DNA of 64,000 bases from Motilibacter peucedani. GTDB lineage: Bacteria; Actinomycetota; Actinomycetes; Motilibacterales; Motilibacteraceae. Below the pieces are notes generated by a model. That model saw nothing but the letters and a program-made list of their open reading frames with translations. It had not been told where the DNA came from and did no database searches. The first letter of the stretch is position 1; every line of letters starts with the position of its first letter. The position numbers and the translations under genes were made by a program. The stretch lies in NCBI RefSeq assembly GCF_003634695.1, contig NZ_RBWV01000012.1, positions 1 through 64,000 on the forward strand. The letters run 5' to 3'. This document shows, piece after piece, positions 1 through 12,529 of this stretch.

Positions 1-157
1 TTCGGACAAGTCACTTCCCGGACCCACCACGCCCGACGCTACGCCCGCGATCGACACCCGACCAGACCCCGCCGCCCCTCCCGTCCAAGCGCTCTTCGCG
101 TGAGTCCCAACGGCACCCTTGACACAGAAGGGAGCCATGAGCGGGCGCTCGGCCGGG

Positions 158-673
158 CTATCCCACGGACAGCACCGTGCTACCCGCCAGGGGCCTGGGC
201 TCGCCGTTCCCGCCGGTCTGGACACTGACGAGGCACGGCAGCCCCGACTGCGCATCGGCGGTGATGACCATGGCTCGCACCATCGCGTCCGGCGGGAGGC
301 TGCCCGAAGGAGCCGGGTGACCCGTGGTGACGGTAAGGGGGAAACGTCCGATAAGTTTGATCTGTAGTTCGCGGCCCGAAGTGCACGGGTGACCCGTGTT
401 CGAGTGCTCCACACTGCCCGAACGCTCTATGGCGGTGGCGCTCGAGACCGAAGCTCCTTGCTCTGCGATCGTCTGGCGGGCCACCGCCTCGGCCTTCGTG
501 ATCGCATCCGGATCCAGCGAACTGACGCCCACCTGCCCGGCGCTTCGAGACGTCTCACGATTGGTCGGGGTCGAGGTCGGCTGCGGCGTCTGCGTAGAAG
601 AGCACGCTGAGAGCACCGGCAGGACGACGAGAGCAGCGAGCGACACCTTCACGCCAGTCGGACGGCGAGTCAT
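158..673 (-). CDS. Putative secreted lipoprotein, unknown function
   Basis: The protein of about 171 residues starts with a basic stretch (MTRRPTGVK), a hydrophobic segment and a lipobox-like LSAC. It is therefore probably a lipoprotein anchored outside the cytoplasmic membrane. After the cysteine comes a Ser/Thr/Pro-rich linker, then a soluble region with two further cysteines that could form a disulfide. I chose the ATG at 673 because the longer reading (to 721) would put 16 unlikely residues before the signal peptide. No enzymatic motif is recognised. It lies alone on its strand at the left end of the accessory region. Export is inferred from the signal sequence only; no function is proposed. 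Confidence 0.6.
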   Translation of the reverse strand: MTRRPTGVKVSLAALVVLPVLSACSSTQTPQPTSTPTNRETSRSAGQVGVSSLDPDAITKAEAVARQTIAEQGASVSSATAIERSGSVEHSNTGHPCTSGRELQIKLIGRFPLTVTTGHPAPSGSLPPDAMVRAMVITADAQSGLPCLVSVQTGGNGEPRPLAGSTVLSVG

Positions 674-888
674 GCCCGATGGTTCCACGCCTGAGGCCAG
701 GCGGTGCATCCCACTGACCACGTCGAGACAGTGCCTGGTTCCGATTGCGTACCCAACAGATCGGTCGGCGCGGCATGTCCGTGCATCTGGGCCGATTGCT
801 TACCGCGACTCTGGGGCTGCGGCGAGCCGTCTCGGTCCGGGGATACCCGTCGGGTGCATGCAACGGACGGCCTGGGTGCGAGGGCGAC

Positions 889-1248
889 GTGTTGACGAAG
901 GCTCGGGTCCTCGATCTGCCCCCTTCCCTAACCGGCCTCGGTCTCGACAAGAGCGAGGCGGAGGTACGTGCAGTCGTCGCTCACATGGACGCCGAACAGG
1001 TGCGACGGATAGTTGACCGCTTCTGTTCTGGCTGGCCGGGAGAGGAACCCGGGAGCGCGTGCGTATGCGGTGCCATGGGAGCCGAGCGGCACGGGCGTCG
1101 AGTTGAGGCTCACTTTGAAGCCGAGGAGCTCGGCGCCGAGCGCGTAATGGCCTGGTGGGCGTATGAGCGCTACGGGCCGGACATGCCGTTCAATGGGCAG
1201 TCCGTCCGTGAGTACGTTCTCAAGTTCAAGCCGTACGACCCGGGCTGA
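889..1248 (+). CDS. Hypothetical protein, about 119 aa
   Basis: The reading frame encodes a charged soluble protein with no signal peptide or membrane helix. A short cysteine pair (CVC) sits in its middle, and its C-terminal third is rich in aromatic residues (VMAWWAYERYG). The start is uncertain: a GTG at 889 has a GAGGG stretch about five bases upstream, whereas the longer frame from 745 has no convincing ribosome binding site. The coding character is weaker than in the core genes, and no family is recognised. It may be a real accessory gene or a chance frame; the coherent C-terminal half argues mildly for a gene. Confidence 0.35.
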   Translation: MLTKARVLDLPPSLTGLGLDKSEAEVRAVVAHMDAEQVRRIVDRFCSGWPGEEPGSACVCGAMGAERHGRRVEAHFEAEELGAERVMAWWAYERYGPDMPFNGQSVREYVLKFKPYDPG

Positions 1249-1369
1249 GGACGAGGCACGCAAGTGGGCCGCTCTTGTTGCAGGCCGCCATGCATGATGG
1301 GCAACACAGCGCGCCTCGCGGTATGAGCGAGCGTCTGGCGGGCATGCACGTGACGCAGGAGGTGTAGTT

Positions 1370-1612
1370 GTGGCGAAGCGCAAGAAACCCCCAGCTAGCG
1401 AACTGTTGCGCTTGGCGTGGCAGTCGCCTGGAGGTCAGCGGCGCTGTCTAAGCGCGCTCGCGGCGGCGGTAGTACTTGGGCTGCTGCTCGGCGCTGCAGG
1501 CATCGACGACAGTCCTTTGGCGTACGTCGCGCTCGCTGTGCTGGTCGCCATCGTCGTCCCGGTGGTCCTAAGGCCGGCCAGTCGCGAGTGGAGCCGCCGG
1601 CAGGGCCTCTAG
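1370..1612 (+). CDS. Small two-helix membrane protein
   Basis: An 80-residue protein starts at a GTG with a good GGAGG ribosome binding site just upstream (in gcaggaggtg). It has a Lys/Arg-rich N-terminus (MAKRKK), two hydrophobic segments at roughly residues 28-44 and 50-67, and a basic C-terminal tail. By the positive-inside rule both ends should be cytoplasmic. It is one of a set of tiny two-helix membrane proteins scattered through the first 8.5 kb. No family is recognised and no partner gene is evident. Confidence 0.6.
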   Translation: MAKRKKPPASELLRLAWQSPGGQRRCLSALAAAVVLGLLLGAAGIDDSPLAYVALAVLVAIVVPVVLRPASREWSRRQGL

Positions 1613-1810
1613 GCACCAGTGTTCAGCCCACCTCGTGCACATCGGCACGACCATGAGGTATTCGCCGTGCGCCTCGCACTCCGACCGTGGCATGTGTGGA
1701 GGCTTGCCGCTACTTGATCGCGGCGACGCGACCGCCGCGCCTCAAGCGGCACCGCAACTCGAGCCCTCGGCTAGAGCGGGACGGTGACAGTTCGCGGCGA
1801 GCTCCTCCTG

Positions 1811-2002
1811 TCACCTCATCAAGACCCGGAAGTTGATCAACGCGATGACTACCCCAGCGGACCCAAGGAGGCCTCCTCCCGCGACATGACCAAGCAGCGC
1901 GAGCACAAGACCCGCCAACCCTATGAGGATCGCGCCGAGGAAAGCGGCCCGCTCCATCGACGTCATGCGGCGCCAAGTTGACCGCTGATCTTGTCGCGGC
2001 AT
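1811..2002 (-). CDS. Small two-helix membrane protein
   Basis: A 63-residue protein is preceded by GGAGAG five bases before the ATG at 2002; an internal ATG at residue 13 is the alternative start. Two hydrophobic segments (about residues 19-38 and 43-58) are separated by a Gly-rich turn. The N-terminus is basic and the end is short. It is transcribed in the same direction as the next small membrane gene at 2085-2258 and could share its transcript. The function is unknown. Confidence 0.6.
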   Translation of the reverse strand: MPRQDQRSTWRRMTSMERAAFLGAILIGLAGLVLALLGHVAGGGLLGSAGVVIALINFRVLMR

Positions 2003-2084
2003 CGGTTCTCTCCAGTGATACGGACGGTCCCCTCATACCCGTCTAACTCTTTCGCACTTCGGCATGGTCGGGGGACACGCGGGC

Positions 2085-2258
2085 CTACCGCTGGGAGCCG
2101 CTCCGTCGTGCGGCGAGGAGAGCGAGAGTCACAGGGACGGCAGCCGCAAGCACGGGGACGAGCCGAGCGGCTCCATCGGCTCCAGTCAAGCGCAAGGACA
2201 GGTAGAGGCCGATGAGGGCGAGGACTGCGAACGCGCCCGTGGTCCAGTAGGTCCGCAC
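2085..2258 (-). CDS. Small two-helix membrane protein, 57 aa
   Basis: I found this gene by direct reading; it is too short for usual ORF cut-offs. A GTG at 2258 is preceded by GGGGAAG about eight bases upstream. The 57-residue product has two hydrophobic helices separated by a short loop containing GADGAAR, followed by a basic tail (ARRSGSQR). Overlapping frames on the same strand are Arg/Pro-rich and look non-coding, whereas this frame has a clean membrane topology. The gene lies 82 bases upstream of the 1811-2002 gene on the same strand, so the two may be co-transcribed. The function is unknown. Confidence 0.55.
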   Translation of the reverse strand: MRTYWTTGAFAVLALIGLYLSLRLTGADGAARLVPVLAAAVPVTLALLAARRSGSQR

Positions 2259-2310
2259 ACAAGATCACTTCCCCGGCGTCGCGGCGCCAACCGCACGTCC
2301 GTCCCGGCGC

Positions 2311-2331
2311 GCTCGTCGGCACGAGCGGTCA
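2311..2331. repeat. Dispersed imperfect palindrome, copy 1
   Basis: The sequence GCTCGTCGGCACGAGCGGTCA contains arms GCTCGT and ACGAGC around GGC. It shares the core TCGGCA-x-GAGCGGwC with copies near 5804, 5257 and 8435. It is intergenic between two accessory genes. Confidence 0.5.
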
Positions 2332-2481
2332 TCGCCACGCGCTCCGTCGGCGGCATGAGCGGTGAGCGCTCGGAGCTAGGGACTGGCCTCGGCGCTTTAT
2401 GCGCGCCCCGACGCTGGTCGTGTTGGCCCTGAGAGAGTGTGACAGCGATTGACGGGCTGACGACTCTAGGCGGCGGGCGAC

Positions 2482-2811
2482 GTGCTTCAGATTGAGCGCT
2501 TCGGCAAAGTTCAAGAAGGTCGATGGAAAGGCTGGTGGATCTACGCAACCCGCCAGTCGGGCGATGCGGTGATGTTCTTCGCATTCGATTTTGATAACGA
2601 TGCAAGCGGCATGGTGGCCGACGAACTATGGGCGCCAACTGCCGAATACGCGACTGATCTGGCTACTGACTGGGCTGTCGATTGGCTGAGTCTGGAGGAG
2701 TCTGAGCGTATCTGGGCGACCCGAGGCGTCCTCCGCAGCGAGCTCGACTACAAGCCGTTGCCATCGAGGAGCGAGAAGCTTCGGGCTTGGTGGGCGGGTA
2801 GGCGGCGCTGA
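2482..2811 (+). CDS. Hypothetical protein, 109 aa
   Basis: This is a soluble acidic protein with many aromatic residues (GWWIYATRQ, FFAFDFDND, DWAVDWL) and a basic C-terminal end (RAWWAGRRR). Translation begins at a GTG; the upstream GGCGGG is only a weak ribosome binding site. Third codon positions are much less GC-biased than in core genes to the right, consistent with recent acquisition. The compact acidic composition resembles small immunity-type or SUKH-like proteins in size only. No family motif is recognised, so no function is assigned. Confidence 0.55.
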   Translation: MLQIERFGKVQEGRWKGWWIYATRQSGDAVMFFAFDFDNDASGMVADELWAPTAEYATDLATDWAVDWLSLEESERIWATRGVLRSELDYKPLPSRSEKLRAWWAGRRR

Positions 2812-2910
2812 CTCGATTACCTGCAACTAGGGAGGAATCGACTGTGCCCGCCCTCACCTTCCTGAGCTTCGGTGCCGCAGGAAGCAGTGCGCCTGCTCTC
2901 GGAGCGGCAT

Positions 2911-2947
2911 GGTCGCTCGCCCGCGAGCTCGGCGGCAAGAGCGGACG
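2911..2947. repeat. Dispersed imperfect palindrome, copy 2
   Basis: Left arm GGTCGCTCGC and right arm GGCAAGAGCGGACG share the left-arm pattern of the copy at 5804 and the right arm of the copies at 4432, 5301 and 8435. It lies 22 bases before the start of the small gene at 2969. Confidence 0.55.
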
Positions 2948-2968
2948 TTCCGTGCAAGTCTCACCGGC

Positions 2969-3190
2969 ATGTCCCTGGACGACGAGACGAGCAGCGACCA
3001 GCCCACAGTCGTGACCGTGCGGGTGGAGTTGGGCCGAGATCCTGACGGCCCGCCTGACGTCTACGAGCTCTCTCACGTGAGTCCCTGGCCGCTGATGCTC
3101 GAGGATGAGGCCATCTCATCTGCTCTCCAGAGGGGCCTCGAGGCGCTGCTTGAGCAGCTTGGTTGGCAGGGGCCGCCCTGGCCGTCCTAG
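2969..3190 (+). CDS. Hypothetical protein, 73 aa
   Basis: A small acidic soluble protein begins at the ATG at 2969 (MSLDDETSSDQ). It reads as a compact alpha/beta domain: a strand-like TVVTVRVELG, a turn DPDGPPDVYEL, then a C-terminal amphipathic helix (ALQRGLEALLEQLG). The frame is open further upstream to 2909, but that extension is Arg-rich and overlaps the palindromic repeat, so it is not thought to be coding. No family is recognised. The gene ends about 30 bases before the IS30-family element. Confidence 0.5.
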   Translation: MSLDDETSSDQPTVVTVRVELGRDPDGPPDVYELSHVSPWPLMLEDEAISSALQRGLEALLEQLGWQGPPWPS

Positions 3191-3193
3191 TCA

Positions 3194-3214
3194 AGCCCGC
3201 ACCGATAGCGGGGC
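3194..3214. repeat. Short GC-rich inverted repeat, possible further palindrome copy
   Basis: GCCCGC and GCGGGGC flank ACCGATA just after the 73-aa gene and nine bases before the IS30-family element. The copy on the far side of the element (4432) has the same layout, GCCCGC then a spacer then GCGGAC, so the element may have inserted between two such repeats. It could equally act as a terminator. Confidence 0.35.
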
Positions 3215-3222
3215 GGTCTCTA

Positions 3223-4427
3223 GCGGTCGTCGCAACACTCCTTGATCATCGGCTCTGCCGAGGAAGGGGTGGTGGTTGTGGCGGTGCGGACAGCGTTGAC
3301 GCCGGCTGAGGTTGATGAGGTGTGGTCGCGGTGGCGTTCGGGGCAGGCGGTGAAGGTGCTGTCGCGGGAGATGCGGCGGCATCCAACGACGGTGCGTGAT
3401 CTGCTCAAGCGCTGCGGAGGGATCCGGCCCAGGCCGCGCACGCGCCCACCGTTGCGGCTGAGTCTGGGCGAGCGGGAGGAGATCTCCCGCGGTCTGGCTG
3501 CTGGGCTGTCGTTGCGGGCGATCGCCACCGGGCTCGGTCGTGCCCCGTCGACGGTGAGCCGCGAGGTCGAGCGCGCAGGCGGCCGAGACGCGGATCGCGC
3601 GTTGGACGCGGACGCCGCGGCGTGGGCGGCGGCGTGCCGGCCTAAGCAGTGCAAGCTGGCGGCCCATCCGCGGCTGCGGGCGGTCGTGCAGGACAGACTG
3701 CGGGAGGACTTCTCCCCGGAGCAGGTTGCCGGGTGGCTGGTCCGCCAGTTCCCCGACGAGCCGGAGATGCGGGTGTCGCACGAGACGATCAACCGCTCAC
3801 TGTTCGTGCAGTCCCGCGGCGCGCTGAAGAAGGAACTGACCCAGCACCTGCGCACCCGGCGGGCGATGCGCCGACCGGCCGGCAAGCGCCTGCCTGATGG
3901 TCGCGGGAACCGGCTGCATGAGCTGACGATCAGTGACCGGCCCGCAGAGGTCGAGGACCGCGCGGTCCCCGGGCACTGGGAAGGCGACCTGGTCTTTGGG
4001 CGCGGGATGAGCCCGGTCGCGACACTGGTCGAGCGCTCGACCCGGTTCGTGATGCTCGTCGCGCTGCCCGAGGGACACAAGTCCGAGCTCGTCGTCGACG
4101 CCCTCGCCGCCAAGATCCAGACCCTGCCCGCGGCGCTGGCGAAAACGCTGACGTGGGATCAGGGCAACGAGATGAGCCTGCACGCAAGGTTCACCGTCGC
4201 GACAGGTGTCCAGGTCTACTTCTGCGACCCGAAATCGCCGTGGCAGCGCGGCAGCAACGAGAACACCAACGGACTGCTTCGCCAGTACCTCCCAAGAACG
4301 CTGAACTTCCGCACACTGACCCAAGCCGACTTCGACGCCATCGCCGACAAGCTCAACACCCGCCCTCGACAGACGCTCGGCTTTCGGACACCATCCGAAG
4401 CACTGGACGAGGTGTTGCGTTAGCCGC
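3223..4427 (+). mobile_element. IS30-family insertion sequence, apparently intact
   Basis: The element of about 1.2 kb carries a single full-length transposase gene bounded by imperfect terminal inverted repeats. The left end reads GCGGTCGTCGCAACACTCC. The right end, read inward on the opposite strand, is GCGGCTAACGCAACACCTC; the two share GCGG, four variable bases, then CGCAACAC. No clear target duplication is visible; the family usually makes only 2-3 bp. The ends are defined by this inverted-repeat match and may be off by a few bases. Confidence 0.8.
3242..4423 (+). CDS. IS30-family DDE transposase
   Basis: This 393-codon gene encodes the transposase of the surrounding element. It begins with an HTH_38-type DNA-binding region containing LSLRAIATGLGRAPSTVSREV. 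The RNase H-like integrase core follows with a DDE triad: D in GHWEGDLVFG near residue 249, D in LTWDQGNEM near 306, and E in SPWQRGSNENTNG near 340. The family signature SHETINRSLFVQ and the terminal LNTRPRQTLGFRTPSEAL are present, and length matches the family. The annotated start is a TTG; a GTG a few codons on (before AVRTALTPAEV) is a plausible alternative. No frameshift or lost catalytic residue is seen, so it may be active. Confidence 0.93.
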   Translation: MIIGSAEEGVVVVAVRTALTPAEVDEVWSRWRSGQAVKVLSREMRRHPTTVRDLLKRCGGIRPRPRTRPPLRLSLGEREEISRGLAAGLSLRAIATGLGRAPSTVSREVERAGGRDADRALDADAAAWAAACRPKQCKLAAHPRLRAVVQDRLREDFSPEQVAGWLVRQFPDEPEMRVSHETINRSLFVQSRGALKKELTQHLRTRRAMRRPAGKRLPDGRGNRLHELTISDRPAEVEDRAVPGHWEGDLVFGRGMSPVATLVERSTRFVMLVALPEGHKSELVVDALAAKIQTLPAALAKTLTWDQGNEMSLHARFTVATGVQVYFCDPKSPWQRGSNENTNGLLRQYLPRTLNFRTLTQADFDAIADKLNTRPRQTLGFRTPSEALDEVLR

Positions 4428-4431
4428 CTGA

Positions 4432-4452
4432 GCCCGCAGGCAAGAGCGGACG
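4432..4452. repeat. Dispersed imperfect palindrome, copy 3
   Basis: GCCCGCAGGCAAGAGCGGAC lies directly after the right end of the IS30-family element and 30 bases before the zinc-ribbon gene. It shares the right arm GGCAAGAGCGGAC with the copies at 2911 and 5301. Confidence 0.55.
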
Positions 4453-4481
4453 TTGGACCAGACGAGCCCGATGATGGTTGA

Positions 4482-4742
4482 GTGGCGGACGAGAGCGACT
4501 ACTGGCGTTGCCCCAACTGCGGTCACACGGATGAGACGCGCCCTCATCGCCGCGGCGTACAAAGAGCGTCCACCCTGCTCGGGATCACCGCCGCTCGAGG
4601 ACCCCGCGAGCTGCACTGCGGCAACTGCGGGCACGTGTGGGGGATGCCAGCTCCCGATGAGTGGGACCGCCAGCAGCAGCGACAACAAGCCGCACGGCTC
4701 AGCAGGGTCGAGCAGCGCAACCGTGAGCTCGGCGGCCAGTGA
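4482..4742 (+). CDS. Small zinc-ribbon protein
   Basis: An 86-residue protein has two CxxC pairs, CPNCGH near residue 10 and CGNCGH near residue 46, typical of a zinc ribbon. A charged, Gln-rich helical tail follows (DEWDRQQQRQQAARLSRVEQRN). The start is a GTG without a strong ribosome binding site. Proteins of this kind often bind nucleic acid or act as subunit adaptors, but the domain alone does not define a role. It is immediately preceded by a copy of the dispersed palindrome and is isolated on its strand. Confidence 0.6.
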   Translation: MADESDYWRCPNCGHTDETRPHRRGVQRASTLLGITAARGPRELHCGNCGHVWGMPAPDEWDRQQQRQQAARLSRVEQRNRELGGQ

Positions 4743-4807
4743 CGCGCTCCGCGGCATGACCGTGAGATCGAGGGTTCGCCTGATCCGAAGGATCACCGAC
4801 GCCAGCA

Positions 4808-5161
4808 TCAGCCCTGGAGGAGTTGTGCCATTTCCGACGCTTCAGCCCACTTCGACGCATAGGACTTCGCTTTGCCGGCGAAAGCGAAAGAGATGCGTCC
4901 TGCCTTCTCGCTGCGTTCGCGCCACCGCACGTCACTAAGGCTTGCGCGCGGGAACCGCTCTAAAACCCGGTCTCGCCTGAGCGCGAACGCGCTGGCTTGG
5001 ACTCGGTACAAGTCCTCGTCAGTGAGAATCAACGCCTGTACTCCGTTGAAGCCATACCAGGGACCTCTACTGACGTGCGCGACGAGTCTGATCGGATGGC
5101 TCGGGCCAACCACCTTCTGCAGATTGTCCAATTCAGGCCCGCTGTACCCTCGTCGCTTCAT
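4808..5161 (-). CDS. Small PH-like/YokE-like domain protein
   Basis: The 117-residue product begins MKRRGYSGPELDNL, preceded by GGAAGGA eight bases upstream of the ATG at 5161; the frame stays open far upstream but without coding character. The sequence fits a bacterial pleckstrin-homology-like fold: alternating strands (ALILTDEDLYRVQA, RISFAFAGKAKSY) with a LTDEDLYRV turn and a C-terminal helix (ASEMAQLLQ). Such domains in small bacterial proteins are mostly of unknown role and sometimes pair with membrane proteins. Two small membrane proteins are encoded upstream on the same strand. Family membership is inferred from pattern only. Confidence 0.55.
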   Translation of the reverse strand: MKRRGYSGPELDNLQKVVGPSHPIRLVAHVSRGPWYGFNGVQALILTDEDLYRVQASAFALRRDRVLERFPRASLSDVRWRERSEKAGRISFAFAGKAKSYASKWAEASEMAQLLQG

Positions 5162-5256
5162 GTAATCATCCTTCCGCATGAGCTGCTCGGAACTGCACCT
5201 ACCCGCGTGTGGGCCTGCGCAGCCGTTGGCGTGAGCCTCCCACGCAGTCCCTCGAT

Positions 5257-5315
5257 CGTCCGACCTTCGGCAGGGGCGGACGTCGCCGGCGCGCGGAGCG
5301 CGGCAAGAGCGGACA
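5257..5315. repeat. Two adjacent copies of the dispersed palindrome
   Basis: The first copy (5257-5282) has perfect 6-base outer arms CGTCCG and CGGACG around ACCTTCGGCAGGGG. The second (5301-5315) carries the conserved right arm CGGCAAGAGCGGACA. The first closely matches the copy at 8435 (TCCGACCwTCGGCArGrGCGG). Confidence 0.6.
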
Positions 5316-5391
5316 CTGGCGGCGAGGCACGAGTGCCGCTGCTCAGTCCTGCGGGTGGTGCGCTCCTCGCAGGGCCATGTGAGGACGTTGC

Positions 5392-5613
5392 TCAACTTGC
5401 GAAGAAGAAGGCGACGCCGAAACAGATGAATCCTGCGCCGATGATGCGCATCATCCAGGGACTGGTCCGTCCCTCGTAAGCCTGGTAGCCGTAGTTGCGT
5501 AACCAGGCGGGACCCTTCGTGTCATTAGCGCGCGCTATCGGCGCAGCCTTGACCACGAGAGTGCCTCCAACTAAGAGGAAGATGATCCCGACAGTGATAC
5601 CCAGATGGCTCAC
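5392..5613 (-). CDS. Small two-helix membrane protein
   Basis: This 73-residue protein has a first hydrophobic segment at the N-terminus (about residues 5-24). A polar loop of about 28 residues containing PAWLRNYGYQAYEG follows, then a second hydrophobic segment near the C-terminus. Its ATG overlaps the TGA of the upstream gene by four bases (ATGA), so the two are likely translationally coupled and may encode partners. No family is recognised. Confidence 0.62.
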   Translation of the reverse strand: MSHLGITVGIIFLLVGGTLVVKAAPIARANDTKGPAWLRNYGYQAYEGRTSPWMMRIIGAGFICFGVAFFFAS

Positions 5614-5804
5614 TTCCTTCTGCTCCGGACGAGCGTGACTACGAAGGATACGACCAGGAACGCGACAGCTAGCAGCACCAGCCAGAGCGGCCTCCCGCCT
5701 CCGCCTCCGTGGCTACTGTCCGCCGCCTGTGAAAGACCCTCGATCATGAGTTTGATCATCGCCTCGCCGGTGTCGACGCAAACGAAGCTTGCCTCTCGGC
5801 GCAT
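5610..5804 (-). CDS. Small single-helix membrane protein
   Basis: The reading frame of up to 64 residues ends in a hydrophobic helix followed by a basic tail (VRSRRK), preceded by a polar Gly-rich segment. The true start may be an internal ATG (MIKLMIEGLS), which would give about 50 residues and fits better than the first ATG. It overlaps the next gene downstream by four bases, which supports expression as a pair. The function is unknown. Confidence 0.55.
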   Translation of the reverse strand: MRREASFVCVDTGEAMIKLMIEGLSQAADSSHGGGGGRPLWLVLLAVAFLVVSFVVTLVRSRRK

Positions 5805-5860
5805 GGTCGCTCATCGGCAGGAGCGGTCAGGGCTACGCACCATGACCGCGGCAAGACCGG
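5804..5860. repeat. Dispersed imperfect palindrome, copies 6 and 7
   Basis: GGTCGCTC and GAGCGGTC are arms around ATCGGCAG (5804-5829). A partial second copy, GCGGCAAGACCGGA, follows at about 5848-5861. The left arm GGTCGCTC also occurs in the copy at 2911. Confidence 0.5.
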
Positions 5861-5861
5861 A

Positions 5862-6248
5862 TGATGGTTCGCTAGGGGTGGCGGTGCATGACTATGCAGC
5901 GCCGCGACAGGGACGGGCCCGGGTCGGGGCTGGACGTTACGCAGCAACCACGACCTTTCCTTGAGCATCCTGCCGGGCGCGCTCCGGTAGCTTCGGCACG
6001 AGGTGCGGCGCACCGCTTGGACGGTGCCGGTCACGGCCGCGCTGTGGGTCGCTGCCTACGTGACGAGATGCGGCCTCCTTTCTCCCACGGGCGGGCGGGC
6101 GCGTAGTGTCCGGTGAACACGAAGGACCTCACCGCCCTTGCGGACGCCTGCGTCAAACGTCTATGTCTAGGTGATAGCGCGCGACAACCGCGACAGGCAT
6201 AGCGGAGGACAAGGGATAAGCGCGCACCCTGCGAAGGGAGGCGCGAAG
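5862..6248. other. Stretch without a recognisable gene
   Basis: No frame here shows coding character. A 37-codon plus-strand frame starting with GTG near 6002 contains a short hydrophobic run, but it has no convincing ribosome binding site. The stretch may hold the 3' region of the large secreted-protein gene to its right, or decayed sequence. No terminator hairpin is obvious. Confidence 0.4.
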
Positions 6249-7841
6249 TTACTTCGTTCCGCACGCCGTATGCGACGGCAACCGCGAGACCCGAGCGGTA
6301 CTCCAGGCGCAGAAGATTACGGTTCCCGACCGGGGAAGTCCTCCCCTGAAGAAGTGCTTCGCTACTACCGGCACCCGAGTCCGAGCAACGACGGCATCAA
6401 CAGCCAACGTGTACGGTGAGCCTCCTGGGCCGGTCACGATCACGCGGTAAGCCGCGTTCTGAGGCCCAAAGAGCAGGACTCCGGACCAGCCCCGTCGCCC
6501 GCGACGGTACACGGAGTAAGGAATCGCGCTTGACGAACCCCGCTTTGTTGCGCCGGTTCCATGGCCGTGCTTGTCCTTCACCAGCAACTGGTTTGGCGGC
6601 TCCTGTATGGCGTAGAACGGCCTGATCCACCCGAGATGTTGGGTGAGTGTGACGTGAATGTCCGACTCGGCCAACGGAATGAAGTCTGATGGCTTGTCGA
6701 CGGAGTGCACGCGGTAGCAGTAGGTAAAGGGGCCCGAGTTGTAGAGTTCGGCTCCGAACTGGGTGCCCGCGTGCCAGATCTCATGGAATCCATCGGTGTG
6801 CCAACGGAGATACAAGTCCCCTGATCCGCCGACCACGCAATTGCTGACTACCTTCGTGGAGTTCTCAGGATTGGGCCACCGACAGTCCGGCGCCCCCGGA
6901 TTCTGTCTCAGTATGTCGAGGTGGGCAGTGGCCTTGCTTTGGATGAGCACCTCGAACAACTGCATCACCGAGGGGCCGATGCCGATACGCACATTTAGTG
7001 TTCCGGATCCGCTATAAGAACAGGTGGCGTCAGGGGCCGGCTGCACGGGTGCGAAGTCCAACGGCAACGGGTCGTAGCGAACGCGTAGCAATTTCAGTGC
7101 GTCGTGGTAAGAAATGTCGATTGCGGGCAGAGTGACAAAGACATGAGCGGGACTGCATGAGGGTCGGAAGCTCCACGCTATATGGCCGTGGCAGGAAGCG
7201 TCTACGCCGTAGTGAAGATCCGCGGAGCCTGCAATGACGTCCGCTGCCGGTTTGTACGATCCCTGCATGTGCAGCAAGTCGCACGAGGTGATGGCGCTAC
7301 CCTCGTCCCATGCGTCCGGCTGGTCGCAACCAGCCCCCACGAAGTGCAGGTCTACTGGGAGTTGTGACGGCCCCAGGATCCAATCGTATGAGAGGCCGCC
7401 GCTGCCGTCTGGAGGATCCTGCCAATGCTGGCTGTCGTCTGGAGGAGTAGGCGTCCGACTTGCAGTGGCTGAAGCGGTCGCCGTCTCCGCCGCGCCTTCG
7501 GGAGATGCGCAAGGAAATGTGACGGTTTTGCTTTGATGACCGCTGGCGGACAGGACTTGGATCTTGGTTATCACGGCGCCGTCACCGCTGTTCTGCTGTG
7601 TCAGGGCTGCGCTCATCATCAGATCCTCAGTGACAGTGCTGTGACTGCCTGGGGCCTCAGCGCCATCGACTTCAGCACCGCCGCTGAATGTTATGGTGCC
7701 AGTCCACTCCCTGGCCGGGTCGACACCAGTCGACTGGTGCGCGCTTGACGTCAGCGCCGTGACCGGCACGGGAAGCGTCGTGGCGGCAGCCACACTTGCG
7801 AAGGCAAAGCAGATGGCTCGTGACCGTGCCCCCATGCCCAT
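6249..7841 (-). CDS. Large secreted protein, unknown function
   Basis: This protein of about 530 residues starts with a signal peptide (MGMGARSRAICFAFASVAAATTLPVP). I prefer the ATG at 7841, though the frame continues upstream to 8009. The mature part has a low-complexity Ala/Thr/Ser/Pro segment (about residues 125-150), then a long beta-rich region with several cysteine pairs expected to form disulfides outside the cell. A region resembling an immunoglobulin-like or beta-sandwich repeat occurs near the C-terminus (YRVIVTGPGGSPYTLAVDA). No catalytic motif or sorting signal is recognised. It is the only large gene besides the transposase in the accessory region. Confidence 0.6.
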   Translation of the reverse strand: MGMGARSRAICFAFASVAAATTLPVPVTALTSSAHQSTGVDPAREWTGTITFSGGAEVDGAEAPGSHSTVTEDLMMSAALTQQNSGDGAVITKIQVLSASGHQSKTVTFPCASPEGAAETATASATASRTPTPPDDSQHWQDPPDGSGGLSYDWILGPSQLPVDLHFVGAGCDQPDAWDEGSAITSCDLLHMQGSYKPAADVIAGSADLHYGVDASCHGHIAWSFRPSCSPAHVFVTLPAIDISYHDALKLLRVRYDPLPLDFAPVQPAPDATCSYSGSGTLNVRIGIGPSVMQLFEVLIQSKATAHLDILRQNPGAPDCRWPNPENSTKVVSNCVVGGSGDLYLRWHTDGFHEIWHAGTQFGAELYNSGPFTYCYRVHSVDKPSDFIPLAESDIHVTLTQHLGWIRPFYAIQEPPNQLLVKDKHGHGTGATKRGSSSAIPYSVYRRGRRGWSGVLLFGPQNAAYRVIVTGPGGSPYTLAVDAVVARTRVPVVAKHFFRGGLPRSGTVIFCAWSTARVSRLPSHTACGTK

Positions 7842-8193
7842 GCTGAAGGATGCCCCCCAAGCGGCTCGCTGGCAAGACTCGCCGGACAGGCAGCCGAGGA
7901 GTGCTCGCCGGACCACTCGCCGTTGCTGACGCACCTTGGAGATGGCGCTCGGGCCGCTGTCCCGTAAGCCCACGGGTGAAAATGCCCGCTTAGGCACTTC
8001 ATATGGCACAAGATCTGAGGGTCACCAGCCAGGCCTCGAGATGGAACGTTCGGCTCCGGGCTTGAACTCCGCTCTGCATGACCTTCCGGACCGCGGCATC
8101 CCTTGCAACCAATGCCGCTTTGCGCTTCTCGGCAGGACCGCGAAGTCGGCGGCGCCTGCCTAGCCAGAGCGTGGTTAGGCTGCCTGATCGGAA
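7842..8193. other. Intergenic or undefined stretch
   Basis: This stretch holds only the upstream open extension of the secreted-protein frame and no independent frame with coding character. It probably includes that gene's promoter. I saw no confident -35/-10 pair and no hairpin. Confidence 0.35.
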
Positions 8194-8519: not shown

Positions 8520-9125
8520 TCAGCGTCTTGCGCCTGGTTCAGAGGTGGAGGCGGGCAGGTCGACCGTGCAGCTGGAGCCGTCGGGGGACTCGAAGTGGAG
8601 GTGCAGCGTTCGCGCGTCTGGCGGGGTCGGCGGCCGGAAGCGCGCGATGTAGCGCCAGGGGGCGTCTTCGCCACCAGCCTGCGCGGAGCCCAAGCGGTAG
8701 GCCGTGCCCCGGTCGTCGGTCACCGTCATGCTCACCTCGGTGAGACGCTCCGCCGGCCACCTCGGAGGGTCGACGGGGTCGTCCCTCGAGAACGTCTCGT
8801 GCCATGTGGCGGAGGCAGCGACGTACTCGCTGAGGATCGGCTCACCAGCTGGCTCCCGACCGATGAGCTCCAGCGTCAGGTGGTTCGCGACAGAGGCTGT
8901 GACGAGGTAGACGTCGGCGCCTTCGACATGGCCGACGACCGACTCCGGCACCGACAGCCGGACCCGTGGCACCTGCGTGACCTGCACGAGGTAGACCCAG
9001 TCCGGGTCGTCGAAGTCGGCGTGCACCAAGCCGTCGGCGAGCAGCTCCCGGGAGCTGTTCGGCGGAGGGTCATGACGAGAACCGCCGAAGACCAGCTCGG
9101 TGGTTGCCCTGCTCAGGTCGATCAT
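8520..9125 (-). CDS. Conserved-looking hypothetical protein, 201 aa
   Basis: This soluble protein has no signal peptide or membrane segment. It has alternating hydrophobic and charged stretches typical of a beta-rich fold (DWVYLVQVTQVPRVRLSVPE, ADVYLVTASVANHLTLELIG) and ends in STSEPGARR. Codon use is strongly GC-biased like the core genes to the right, unlike the genes to its left. It is transcribed away from the tRNA-Lys gene. No family is recognised. Confidence 0.6.
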   Translation of the reverse strand: MIDLSRATTELVFGGSRHDPPPNSSRELLADGLVHADFDDPDWVYLVQVTQVPRVRLSVPESVVGHVEGADVYLVTASVANHLTLELIGREPAGEPILSEYVAASATWHETFSRDDPVDPPRWPAERLTEVSMTVTDDRGTAYRLGSAQAGGEDAPWRYIARFRPPTPPDARTLHLHFESPDGSSCTVDLPASTSEPGARR

Positions 9126-9178
9126 GGCTAGACGCTAGCGGCGTGGACGCGCCTGAGCGGACCGGGCACCGAAACAAA

Positions 9179-9212
9179 CCTGCGGCGATGCCCAGAAGGA
9201 CATCGCCGCAGG
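9179..9212 (-). terminator. Rho-independent terminator of tRNA-Lys
   Basis: A 12-bp stem (CCTGCGGCGATG with CATCGCCGCAGG) encloses a 10-base loop. Read on the minus strand it is followed by TTTGTTTC. It starts eight bases beyond the tRNA 3' end. Confidence 0.8.
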
Positions 9213-9220
9213 TCAACGGG

Positions 9221-9293
9221 TGCGCCGCGAGGGAATCGAACCCCCAACCCGCGGATTAAGAGTCCGCTGCTCTGCCAGTTGAGCTAGCGGCGC
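9221..9293 (-). tRNA. tRNA-Lys (CTT)
   Basis: A 73-nt cloverleaf on the minus strand has acceptor stem GCGCCGC/GCGGCGC, D-arm GCTC...GAGC, anticodon loop ctCTTaa and T-loop TTCGATT. The discriminator is A and CCA is not encoded. Its 3' end faces the accessory region, the orientation expected if that region had entered at this tRNA, although no duplicated 3' end was found. Confidence 0.95.
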
Positions 9294-9338
9294 GCGGGCA
9301 GAACATTACCAGGGTCCGTGGGCCCGCCCGGCCAGGCC

Positions 9339-9518
9339 CTAGCCAGCGGCCCACCAAGCGAGCTCGGGGCGCCCCTCGTGCTCGAGGATGTCGCGCGAGC
9401 TCGGCCCGTCGACATCGGTCAGGTCGCAGATCAGCGACAGCGGGATCCCGGCGGCCAGGAGCTGCATGCAGAGCTCCGTGGCCGGACGGCTGGTCTTCTC
9501 AAGAGTCGTTGCCCCCAT
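9339..9518 (-). CDS. Small conserved hypothetical protein, 59 aa
   Basis: The ATG at 9518 is preceded by GAGGG eight bases upstream, which favours it over the longer frame from 9617. The 59-residue product has a helical core (PATELCMQLLAAGIPLSLICDL) followed by an acidic TDVDGPSSRDILEHE and an aromatic C-terminus. It looks like a small soluble alpha-helical protein; I recall similar mini-proteins in actinomycetes but can assign no role. It lies downstream of, and on the same strand as, the oxygenase gene and could be the last gene of that transcript. Confidence 0.6.
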   Translation of the reverse strand: MGATTLEKTSRPATELCMQLLAAGIPLSLICDLTDVDGPSSRDILEHEGRPELAWWAAG

Positions 9519-9626
9519 GGCATATCCCTCGGTCGTCGAAGTGCCGCACTGATGCGCCGGTCGAGTGGAGGGATCCCCGCTCACGCTTGGTGCATGCCCG
9601 ACTACGCAATAGACCACCCGATCGGG

Positions 9627-10889
9627 TCAGCCCTCGGCCGGGACGACCACTCCTTCGCGCAGCAGCCGACGCACCAGCACCACCCCGTCGGCCTCGTCCA
9701 GCCCGGGCAGCTCAGCGGCGAGGAACGTCTCCCCGCTCAGCAGCGCGTCGACAGCCGCCGCGGTGTCCGCCGGCAACGTCAGCGACCGACCGGGCAGCAC
9801 GAGCTGGACCGAGTCACCGGCCGGCCGCAGCTGCGCGCGGAGGGCGTCGCGCAGACGTACGGCTGTGGTGCCCGTAGCCGACCGCGCCGCGGCCGCCTGG
9901 GCGAGCGGAGCGATCGGCGCCGGCCGGCTCTTCGGCCAGACGCTGCGGCGCAGCCGCTCGGCGACGTCAGCGGCAGGCACCTCGCGGACGGCGGCCGCGA
10001 GCGCCTCGAGCGTCGCGGCGACCTCTTCCTGCACGGCGGCTGGGTCGGCGACGTCGACGCCGAGCGGCAGGGATCGGCGCAGCTCGGGGGAGCGCGCGGC
10101 CAGCGCCGTCAGGGCCTCGGCCACCGCGTACCGCGTCACCGTGTGGATGCCGACGGTGATGTGGGCGGAGACGTCGCCCAGCGCCTCGGCGGCGTGGAGC
10201 CAGCCGCGGGGGAGGTAGAGCGCGTCGCCCGGGCGCAGCACCTCGTCGAGGAAGGGCTCCTCGGCGGCGCGCTCGGCCACAGCGGCCCGCCGGTCGGTCC
10301 ACACCTGCGAGCGCAGGGGCGACTCGAGCACGGGCCGCGAGATGCGCCAGCGCTTCTCGCCGGCGACCTGGAGCACGAAGACGTCGTGCACGTCGTAGTG
10401 GGCGTCGAAGCCGCGCGACTGCGGCGGCGTGACGTAGGCGTTGACCTGCACCGGGTGGCCGAGCTCGGCGGCCAGCGCGCTGGCGAACGCGACGAGCGGC
10501 GGGTGGTTGCGGTGGAGACCCTGCAGCACGATCGAGGCGCCGTCGGCGAACAGGCCGAGCAGGGCGTCGTCGCGCACCTGGTCGGCGATCTCGGCGCCCG
10601 CGCCGCCGGAGCCGGTCCAGCGCGAAGGGTCGATGACCTGCCCGTCCTTCGCCACCCGGATGAAGGGGGTGCGCAGGCCGCGCTCGGAGAGCAGCTCGTC
10701 GACCGCGTCGAGGCTCAGCAGGTCGCTGAAGCCGCCCACTCCGCCGGGCAGCGAGGCGGCGCGGGCCAGCAGCGCCTGCCGGCCCCAGTAGTCCTCGGCG
10801 AAGGAGTCCACGTCGAGCGGCAGCACGCGCTGCAGCGCCGGGTGGGGGTCGGACCCCACCCGGCGCTCAGCGTCGTCCACCAGCGTCAT
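9627..10889 (-). CDS. JmjC/cupin_4 Fe(II)/2-oxoglutarate oxygenase (ribosomal-oxygenase-like)
   Basis: This 420-residue protein belongs to the cupin_4/JmjC family, which includes ribosomal protein hydroxylases such as YcfD, MINA53 and NO66. The iron facial triad is visible as H164-x-D166 in FDAHYDVHDVFVLQVAGEKRW and H232 in LPRGWLHAAE. Lys179 in the GEKRW segment suits 2-oxoglutarate binding. A dimerisation helix region and a C-terminal winged-helix-like end (about residues 365-420) follow, as in family members. The known activity is hydroxylation of a protein side chain (Arg or His). The gene starts nine bases after the stop codon of an acidic repeat peptide, so translation is probably coupled. 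That peptide is a candidate substrate, but this is inference. Confidence 0.88.
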   Translation of the reverse strand: MTLVDDAERRVGSDPHPALQRVLPLDVDSFAEDYWGRQALLARAASLPGGVGGFSDLLSLDAVDELLSERGLRTPFIRVAKDGQVIDPSRWTGSGGAGAEIADQVRDDALLGLFADGASIVLQGLHRNHPPLVAFASALAAELGHPVQVNAYVTPPQSRGFDAHYDVHDVFVLQVAGEKRWRISRPVLESPLRSQVWTDRRAAVAERAAEEPFLDEVLRPGDALYLPRGWLHAAEALGDVSAHITVGIHTVTRYAVAEALTALAARSPELRRSLPLGVDVADPAAVQEEVAATLEALAAAVREVPAADVAERLRRSVWPKSRPAPIAPLAQAAAARSATGTTAVRLRDALRAQLRPAGDSVQLVLPGRSLTLPADTAAAVDALLSGETFLAAELPGLDEADGVVLVRRLLREGVVVPAEG

Positions 10890-10898
10890 GCGACGGGC

Positions 10899-11153
10899 TC
10901 AGGCGCCGCCGTCAGCGCCGCCGTCGGCACCACCGTCGGCACCGCCGTCCGCGCCACCGTCAGCCCCGCCGTCGGCGCCGCCGTCGTGCTGGCCCGGCTG
11001 GCCGGACGCGCCGCCGTCGGCGGGACCCTCGGCACCGCTGTCGGCGCCGCCGTCAGCGCCACCGTCCTGCTGGCCGGGGACGCCGGACGCGCCGCCGTCC
11101 GCGGGACCTTCGGCGCCGCTGTCGCTGGTGATGCTGTCGTCATCGAGGGCCAT
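10899..11153 (-). CDS. Acidic DGGA-repeat peptide, candidate substrate of the adjacent oxygenase
   Basis: The 84-residue product has a strong AAGGAG ribosome binding site six bases before its ATG, so it is very likely translated. After a 12-residue N-terminus (MALDDDSITSDS) it consists entirely of repeats. Two tandem 27-residue units (13-39 and 40-66) start GAEGPADGGASG, and seven DGGA units run from residue 57 to 84. It has no Lys, Arg, Cys or aromatic residue and a single His (56), so it is extremely acidic and probably unstructured. No signal peptide is present. Coupled with a JmjC oxygenase downstream, it resembles a precursor or client peptide with many Asp sites. It could instead be a low-complexity structural protein. 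Confidence 0.75.
   Translation of the reverse strand: MALDDDSITSDSGAEGPADGGASGVPGQQDGGADGGADSGAEGPADGGASGQPGQHDGGADGGADGGADGGADGGADGGADGGA
10902..11117 (-). repeat. Tandem repeats inside the DGGA-peptide gene
   Basis: Two 81-bp units lie in tandem (11117-10956), overlapped by seven 12-bp units encoding DGGA (10985-10902). The 12-bp period in the plus-strand reading is close to gccgccgtcagc, with synonymous variation. That variation suggests the array is maintained at the protein level and is not the result of very recent slippage. Confidence 0.75.
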
Positions 11154-11365
11154 GAGGACTCCTTCTGTCAGGGACCGGAGACAGCATGATCACCCATCGC
11201 GATCACGCCCGTGGAGTCGCTACCCCGAACCGACACGCGCCACTCGTCCGGGAACGCCCGGCTCGGTTGATGAACAGTCGGTGAACGAGTGGCGCCAGGG
11301 CTGTCCTGGCGGGCTGCGGCGGGGGAGGTTGGCCCCGACACCTGCCCCAGAGAGACAGAGGAACG

Positions 11366-12529
11366 ATGGACGCGGACACGCTGCTGCTGGCCACCGTGGT
11401 GGTCACGGCGTTGGGGTTCGACTTCACCAACGGCTTCCACGACACCGCCAACGCGATGGCCACCTCGATCGCGACCGGCGCGCTCAAGCCGAAGGTGGCG
11501 GTGGCGCTCGCGGGCGTCCTCAACTTCGTCGGAGCGTTCCTGTCGCTGACCGTCGCCGCGACGATCGCCAAGGGCATCGTCGACCAGGACGTGGTCACGC
11601 TGCCGATCGTGTTCGCCGGCCTGGCGGGCGCGATCCTGTGGAACCTGCTGACCTGGTACCTCGGCCTGCCGTCGAGCTCCTCGCACGCCCTCATCGGAGG
11701 CGTCGTCGGCGCGACGTTCATCGCGGCCGGCGCCGACGCGGTGCTCGGCAAGGGCATCCTCAAGTCGGTGATCATCCCCGCGCTGCTGGCGCCGTTCGCC
11801 GCGGGCTTGGTTGCCGCGATCGGGACGTTCGCCGCCTACCTCATCACCCGCCGCGTCAACGACGGGATCCGCACGCGCGGCTTCCGCGTCGCGCAGATCG
11901 GCTCCGCCTCGCTCGTCTCGCTCGCGCACGGCACCAACGACGCGCAGAAGACGATGGGCATCATCACGCTCGCGCTGGTCGCCAACCACGACCTGGGCAA
12001 GGGCGCCGACACCCCGATGTGGGTCATCGCCTCCTGCGCGGTCGCCATCAGCGTCGGCACCTACCTCGGCGGCTGGCGCGTCATCCGCACGCTGGGCAAG
12101 GGCCTGGTCGAGATCGAGACCCCGCAGGGCTTCGCCGCCGAGGCATCCTCGGCCTCGGTGATCCTCGCCTCCTCGCACTTCGGCTACCCGCTCTCGACCA
12201 CGCACGTGGTCTCCGGCTCGATCCTCGGCTCGGGCGTCGGCAAGCGCGCCGCGCAGGTGCGCTGGAGCCTCGCCGGGCGCATGGCGCTCGGCTGGGTGCT
12301 GACGCTGCCGGCGGCAGCGGTCGTCGGAGGCGTCGCGTACGCCGGTGCGCACCTCATCGGCGGAACCGCGGGCGTCGTCGTGATGGCGCTCGTGCTCGCC
12401 GCCTGCGCGGCGGCGTTCTTCCTCGCCTCGCGCCGCAGCCCGGTCGACCACACGAACGTGAACGACGACTGGGAGGCCCGGAAGCCCGCGGCTCCCGCCG
12501 CGCCCCAGCGCGCGCTGGCGAAGGTCTGA
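11366..12529 (+). CDS. pit: PiT-family inorganic phosphate transporter
   Basis: A 387-residue integral membrane protein imports phosphate (as metal-phosphate, with protons) through the cytoplasmic membrane. The family signature appears twice in inverted halves: GFDFTNGFHDTANAMATSIATGAL near the N-terminus and VSLAHGTNDAQKTMG near residue 190. The sequence LPSSSSHALIGG at about residue 110 and its counterpart YPLSTTHVVSG at about 275 are the expected second motif pair. About ten hydrophobic helices are present. A small membrane protein and polyphosphate kinase 2 follow on the same strand, forming a phosphate uptake and storage group. No Pho box was identified. Confidence 0.93.
   Translation: MDADTLLLATVVVTALGFDFTNGFHDTANAMATSIATGALKPKVAVALAGVLNFVGAFLSLTVAATIAKGIVDQDVVTLPIVFAGLAGAILWNLLTWYLGLPSSSSHALIGGVVGATFIAAGADAVLGKGILKSVIIPALLAPFAAGLVAAIGTFAAYLITRRVNDGIRTRGFRVAQIGSASLVSLAHGTNDAQKTMGIITLALVANHDLGKGADTPMWVIASCAVAISVGTYLGGWRVIRTLGKGLVEIETPQGFAAEASSASVILASSHFGYPLSTTHVVSGSILGSGVGKRAAQVRWSLAGRMALGWVLTLPAAAVVGGVAYAGAHLIGGTAGVVVMALVLAACAAAFFLASRRSPVDHTNVNDDWEARKPAAPAAPQRALAKV

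Follow-up and report, generated by a model that had tools for sequence, protein, structure and literature searches.

What is a gene for a small, strongly acidic repeat peptide doing directly in front of a gene for a JmjC oxygenase? The question is raised by a locus of Motilibacter peucedani (Actinomycetota; contig NZ_RBWV01000012.1), where the window, meaning the whole stretch of DNA analysed, is 64,000 nucleotides long. The peptide gene and its parts are located as follows.

11159-11164, minus strand: ribosome-binding site AAGGAG, 5 nt before the peptide ATG
10899-11153, minus strand: Asp-array peptide gene, 84 aa (list of open reading frames, phylum-wide pairing and pN/pS)
11118-11153, minus strand: N-terminal acidic motif MALDDDSITSDS, a predicted leader or recognition element (kept while cores differ)
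10959-11120, minus strand: two 27-residue units (residues 12-38 and 39-65), SGAEGPADGGASG.PGQ.DGGADGGAD (codon comparison)
10902-10985, minus strand: run of seven DGGA units (residues 57-84), of which units 1 and 2 overlap the second 27-residue unit

The translated product reads MALDDDSITSDSGAEGPADGGASGVPGQQDGGADGGADSGAEGPADGGASGQPGQHDGGA(DGGA)6 and is probably disordered. The initial annotation had described an 84-residue peptide with a strong ribosome-binding site, no Lys, Arg, Cys or aromatic residues, and a build of two 27-residue units plus seven DGGA units, all of which agrees with the features above. No NCBIfam or Pfam family covers the peptide or its variants (two sub-threshold matches in variants are chance matches), and a tblastn search of plasmid records with the peptide returned no match.

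A sceptical reading of such a sequence is that the repeat is an artefact of G+C-rich DNA without a protein product, given that the surrounding G+C content is 70-74% and the DNA is repetitive. The two 27-residue units, however, differ by eight synonymous and only two non-synonymous codon changes, which points to their identity being kept at the protein level. Between relatives, the pooled pN/pS of the peptide is 0.19, a value to be taken as indicative because aligning repeats tends to lower the ratio, and an RBS-like motif precedes the leader-anchored start in 80 of 85 relatives versus 104 of 680 control windows. Judged by these signals, the reading frame is under selection and the gene is translated. 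Together with a pairing that is kept across classes (below), the existing data refute the artefact for practical purposes, and we assign it a negligible probability.

The neighbouring enzyme is encoded on the same strand.

9627-10889, minus strand: JmjC_2 (NO66-type) Fe(II)/2-oxoglutarate oxygenase, 420 aa (Pfam PF08007, 6e-28)
10398-10400, 10392-10394 and 10194-10196, minus strand: iron ligands H164, D166 and H232, respectively, alongside the 2-oxoglutarate lysine K179 (alignment)
9630-9923, minus strand: C-terminal winged-helix domain, RRE-like in the order three strands then helices (model of the domain alone)

The PF08007 score is 97.3 bits against a cut-off of 22, and NCBIfam holds no match for this reading frame. 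The H-x-D...H iron site, previously described as intact, is invariant: H164, D166, H232 and also K179 are each kept in 139/139 aligned clade sequences. Residue R127 is likewise present in 139/139 sequences of the clade versus 2/13 of an outlying group, and is a candidate substrate-recognition residue. An AlphaFold2 model of the oxygenase (mean pLDDT 88) finds human NO66 as its best structural match (Foldseek 2.5e-26), with a VIA-align Z score of 29.8 and an rmsd of 4.4 over 388 residues, spanning model residues 7-420 and including the winged helix. As modelled, the oxygenase has an NO66-like fold. Like the window enzyme, NO66 (RIOX1), MINA53 (RIOX2) and YcfD belong to PF08007, carry the HxD...H iron site and the 2-oxoglutarate lysine, and share the domain order of JmjC, helical region and winged helix. 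They differ in sequence, at about 25% identity, and it is the window enzyme that is encoded beside an Asp-repeat peptide.

The pairing extends far beyond this locus. In a search of 60 relatives the oxygenase was found in 21 genomes, and in that set an acidic repeat ORF lies upstream of relatives at least 37% identical to the window oxygenase. Named genomes hold at least 582 oxygenase-related stretches; the best 80 of these are all from Actinomycetes, among them Geodermatophilaceae, Pseudonocardiaceae, Kribbellaceae, Kineosporiaceae, Micromonosporaceae, Microbacteriaceae, Motilibacter and others. Among distinct loci for which 330 nt or more of upstream sequence is available, a few of them assigned by eye, an Asp-rich repeat peptide stands directly upstream of 121/122 clade oxygenases and 0/12 outlying JmjC_2 genes. 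A phylum sample of 296 Actinomycetota genomes, chosen without homology to the window gene and searched with Pfam PF08007, gave the same picture: the family is present in 48 genomes, the clade oxygenase in about one genome in seven, and the peptide at 38/39 clade loci versus 0/10 outlying ones (Fisher p 1.3e-9). Other families and classes in this sample also have Asp-repeat peptides, with DGDATD or DADGTD replacing DGGA. All seven DGGADGGA-coding matches in the source genome fall at the peptide gene's locus, and among the 296 genomes clusters of three or more such matches are confined to oxygenase loci. The pairing of peptide and oxygenase is thus real and phylum-wide. The initial annotation had asked for this comparison in actinobacterial genomes, and the peptide ORF, whose absence or unconserved frame beside orthologous oxygenases would have spoken against it, is found next to them throughout the phylum with its reading frame conserved.

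The gene tree follows the type of repeat. DGGA-paired enzymes and the locus L116 form one clade (support 100/99), neighboured by a clade of most DxD-paired enzymes (100/98); L017 and the divergent L149 fall outside the DxD clade, and a divergent peptide-less gene, L134, sits inside it on a long branch. Two exceptions are only apparent, as the peptide is present but farther away in L065 and obscured by masked bases in L086. L116 (genome G183) is the sole clade locus whose upstream ORF is acidic and non-repetitive, which counts against the reading that we prefer below; an adjacent Suc_Fer-like gene, described below, is absent there as well. Separately, short non-repetitive peptides precede a different JmjC_2 clade, the outlying genes L021, L022 and L135 (e.g. 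METADELVVAVETLASVQDRFDTEHSDSDGSDGLNYPEGQ), and the upstream peptide of L136 has the C-terminal sequence EALSGGLEVI. Five JmjC_2 matches occur in genome G334, the one that holds L135. These peptides are possibly separate JmjC-associated precursor families.

The two genes are also closely spaced. The peptide stop codon lies 9 nt before the oxygenase ATG in the window, as had been noted, and across 59 measured loci the distance from the peptide stop to the first possible oxygenase start has a median of 1 nt, with an overlap in 28, which suggests translational coupling. An ORF just upstream and translationally coupled could be a regulatory leader (attenuator) that senses Asp, Gly or Ala supply for translation of the oxygenase. 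Attenuator peptides are short and need no conserved N-terminal motif, whereas the peptides here range from 58 to 225 aa among relatives, keep such a motif and are under selection at the protein level. In addition, no terminator-like site was found in window positions 9000-11600. We therefore regard attenuation as very improbable. Upstream of the peptide gene, IdeR, Fur, DosR and Zur boxes are not enriched. Geodermatophilaceae loci such as L028, L042, L058, L067 and L072 have a perfect LexA-type box, TCGAACnnnnGTTCGA, some 200 nt before the peptide; it was rejected as a regulator of the peptide, since it most likely serves a divergent dinB-like (Pol IV) gene, assigned by eye in L058.

How is the peptide itself organized? 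Its N-terminus is nearly constant, reading M[AS][LI][DNES]DDD[IM]x[TS] in Actinomycetes (e.g. MALDDDDMTT) and L[ST]D[DE][DE][IM]xT in other classes (e.g. LTDEDIxT), and is weak or absent in a handful of loci, among them L011, L014 and L076. Behind this motif the core changes in both repeat number and repeat type (DGGA, DGDATD), in line with the earlier expectation of a conserved N-terminus before a variable number of repeats. A spacing of 4 between Asp residues predominates in the DGGA group, and one of 3 or 2 in the DxD group. Rarer cores are built on ADGTDQGVxGGTYGPRD in L129 and on TEDDENLDAPGEHSQDTGDE in L149, and these unusual repeats are useful for deciding which residue is modified.

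The conserved adjacency to an enzyme of a protein-hydroxylating kind makes it very probable that the peptide is the substrate of the oxygenase, in which case the two genes would form a conserved substrate-plus-modifying-enzyme operon of Actinomycetota. Another way to explain the adjacency is that the peptide is a partner of the enzyme: as an acidic inhibitor, a chaperone or a mimic, it would hold the enzyme back from another target such as a ribosomal protein, or deliver it there. The peptide is indeed strongly acidic, and the oxygenase resembles NO66 in fold and sequence, with NO66, MINA53 and YcfD all having ribosomal proteins as substrates. A mimic, however, should keep a fixed length and sequence, while the core here holds anything from 6 to 30 Asp and differs in repeat type between clades; a constant N-terminal motif followed by a changing core is what one would expect of a leader whose core can be exchanged. 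A partner role is accordingly rather unlikely in our estimate.

If the peptide is a substrate, which residue would be modified? Asp makes up 20% of core residues and occurs in 117/117 cores. Gly and Ala are likewise in 117/117 cores, a point that counts against Asp as the target, and partial presence is seen for His (83/117), Pro (90/117), Asn (30/117) and Arg (37/117). Asp is the best candidate because it is the sole plausible side-chain target common to all 117 cores, and we infer multi-site hydroxylation of this residue. Known ribosomal oxygenases modify ribosomal proteins at His or Arg (PMC6006756), and that the closest characterised relatives do so counts against the choice of Asp. There is a competing possibility, unlikely in our judgement, that the peptide is the substrate and the target is something other than the Asp beta-carbon: Gly or Ala, the His of HDGG in the Actinomycetes form, or hydroxy-Asp that is oxidized further. 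NO66 and MINA53 are histidyl hydroxylases, and His directly precedes Asp at 125 core positions. Against this, His is absent from 34/117 cores and present in just 3/22 DxD cores, and Gly and Ala are unusual targets for the JmjC_2 enzyme family. For further oxidation there is a precedent in a graspetide cluster, where an oxygenase pair converts hydroxy-Asp to aminomalonate, according to the citing passage in PMC13097080.

Recognition of a constant leader calls attention to the C-terminal winged helix of the oxygenase, which we infer would bind it. Modelled alone (pLDDT 88), the domain shows three strands with helices after them. Its first Foldseek matches are ribosomal oxygenases, NO66 among them, followed by ten matches to RiPP-system proteins or domains (PqqD 5sxy, ThcOx, TbiB1, PbtF, GodF and the McbBCD complex) at weak E values of 0.03-0.3, the RREs of PqqD, TbiB1 and PbtF lying at 0.03-0.06. 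Because the winged helix is common to all ribosomal oxygenases, the RRE likeness is a family trait and no proof of leader binding, and both this and the weakness of the matches count against the proposal. The RiPP-domain matches do fit a remark in the accessible portion of a recent paper (mSystems 2025, PMC12710340) on JmjC PF08007 proteins of fish and algae that carry a fused RRE-like fold, with bacterial homologues of these proteins in RiPP-like contexts. That portion differs from the present case in that it gives neither a precursor or repeat peptide nor a partner gene or a distribution.

A third gene had been proposed for the unit.

9342-9518, minus strand: 59-aa ORF, member of a small family

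This ORF adjoins the oxygenase in genomes G002 and G004 and lies farther off in G001, and its family is found in 10/21 related genomes at varying loci. We rejected it as a third component, since it is a neighbour in only part of the family and its other relatives are at other loci. The conserved third gene is a different one. Clustering of neighbouring ORFs revealed a Suc_Fer-like gene (PF06999, the family that also holds the yeast Apd1/Aim32 group) immediately after the oxygenase and in the same orientation; the four loci scanned with PF06999 (L035, L027, L057, L079) scored 54.7-78.9 bits against a cut-off of 34.9, and a profile built from the family places the gene next to the oxygenase in 114/129 distinct loci, the DxD clade included. 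Neither the window nor L002-L004 has it next to the oxygenase. The single PF06999 gene of the window's genome is a dispersed paralogue. Genome G003, from the family of the window genome, carries the gene twice, in the operon (5.8e-104) and as a dispersed paralogue (4.8e-53), while G000, G001, G002 and G004 have just one gene, scoring like the paralogue. The window lineage has thus lost the operon copy, and the third gene is dispensable. No PDB chain matches the Suc_Fer-like protein. The last residue of HxGGH, which we take to be the family motif of Suc_Fer-like proteins, is often Asp at these loci, so that cluster binding is uncertain. We know of no role for Suc_Fer-like proteins with a peptide hydroxylase.

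In the flanks (up to 6 kb) of 80 named loci with incomplete annotation, no protease or transporter family is recurrent, and across taxa the Suc_Fer-like gene alone recurs. PitA and PPK2 were also considered as functional partners and rejected, neither being a recurrent neighbour family. Typical RiPP clusters differ in this respect, which counts against a RiPP-like reading, and leader processing by enzymes encoded elsewhere is possible. The same absence favours an intracellular role for the product. As a separate observation on the neighbourhood, positions 1-8000 of the window have a G+C content of 63-68% versus about 73% elsewhere, in a segment that ends near a tRNA-Lys gene (9219-9293), and this segment is possibly an integrated element.

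The account that we consider probable is a leader-guided, multi-site hydroxylation of the Asp-array peptide by its paired NO66-type oxygenase, with a Suc_Fer-like helper and an intracellular product. The first gene would supply a small peptide with a short constant acidic leader and a core of regularly spaced Asp. The second, the NO66-type JmjC Fe(II)/2-oxoglutarate oxygenase, would hold the leader, probably via its RRE-like winged helix, and hydroxylate many core sites, most likely at the Asp beta-carbon. The third, where present, would probably serve redox or iron maintenance of the reaction and may keep the iron reduced. An intracellular site of action is probable for the product, which is possibly a metal-binding polyanion of beta-hydroxy-Asp. 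This residue coordinates metals in siderophores and Ca in EGF domains, which makes metal binding a natural guess; both metal binding and the cellular role of the product are speculative.

Iyer et al. reportedly treated JmjC enzymes in bacterial peptide modification in 2010. Among characterised systems, a likeness is offered by BipG/BpmG, the JmjC ornithine hydroxylase of biphenomycin biosynthesis that acts on a RiPP precursor (PMC12707348): it too is a JmjC 2-oxoglutarate oxygenase hydroxylating a side chain of a genetically linked ribosomal precursor. BipG differs in catalysing a single late reaction of a large antibiotic cluster, with Orn of an FRF core as its target, whereas the operon here is compact, encodes an Asp array and comes without a radical SAM, MNIO or protease partner. 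Asp beta-hydroxylation in ribosomal precursors has been described for PesHI (PMC13060819) and SmaO/SmaX (cited in PMC13097080). In the accessible text of these sources PesHI modifies just one Asp in its precursor rather than an array, and neither PesHI nor SmaO/SmaX is described as a JmjC_2 enzyme. The present system would resemble RiPP-type leader-guided modification built on an enzyme of the ribosomal-oxygenase type. The searchable literature and family libraries yielded no published description or family entry of the peptide/oxygenase system, and the searchable literature no report of a modification of the peptide.

What would the system mean for this family of enzymes? Bacterial members of the fold family that includes human NO66 and MINA53 are known mainly from YcfD, and a clade of JmjC_2 oxygenases within it now gains a likely substrate. 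If confirmed, the system would provide an encodable multi-site hydroxylation array, from a peptide/oxygenase pair that is tiny and easy to express, as well as a lead on the function of non-ribosomal family members and material for comparison on how the winged helix of ribosomal oxygenases arose. More tentatively, and with some doubt on our part, the operons may represent an undescribed, phylum-wide class of ribosomal peptides in which an NO66-type oxygenase with a leader-binding domain and a Suc_Fer-like protein produce an intracellular poly-beta-hydroxyaspartate, e.g. a metal-binding or an oxygen- and iron-responsive polymer. Such a class, if true, would point to a common ancestry of eukaryotic ribosomal oxygenases and peptide-tailoring enzymes whose winged helix served to bind leaders.
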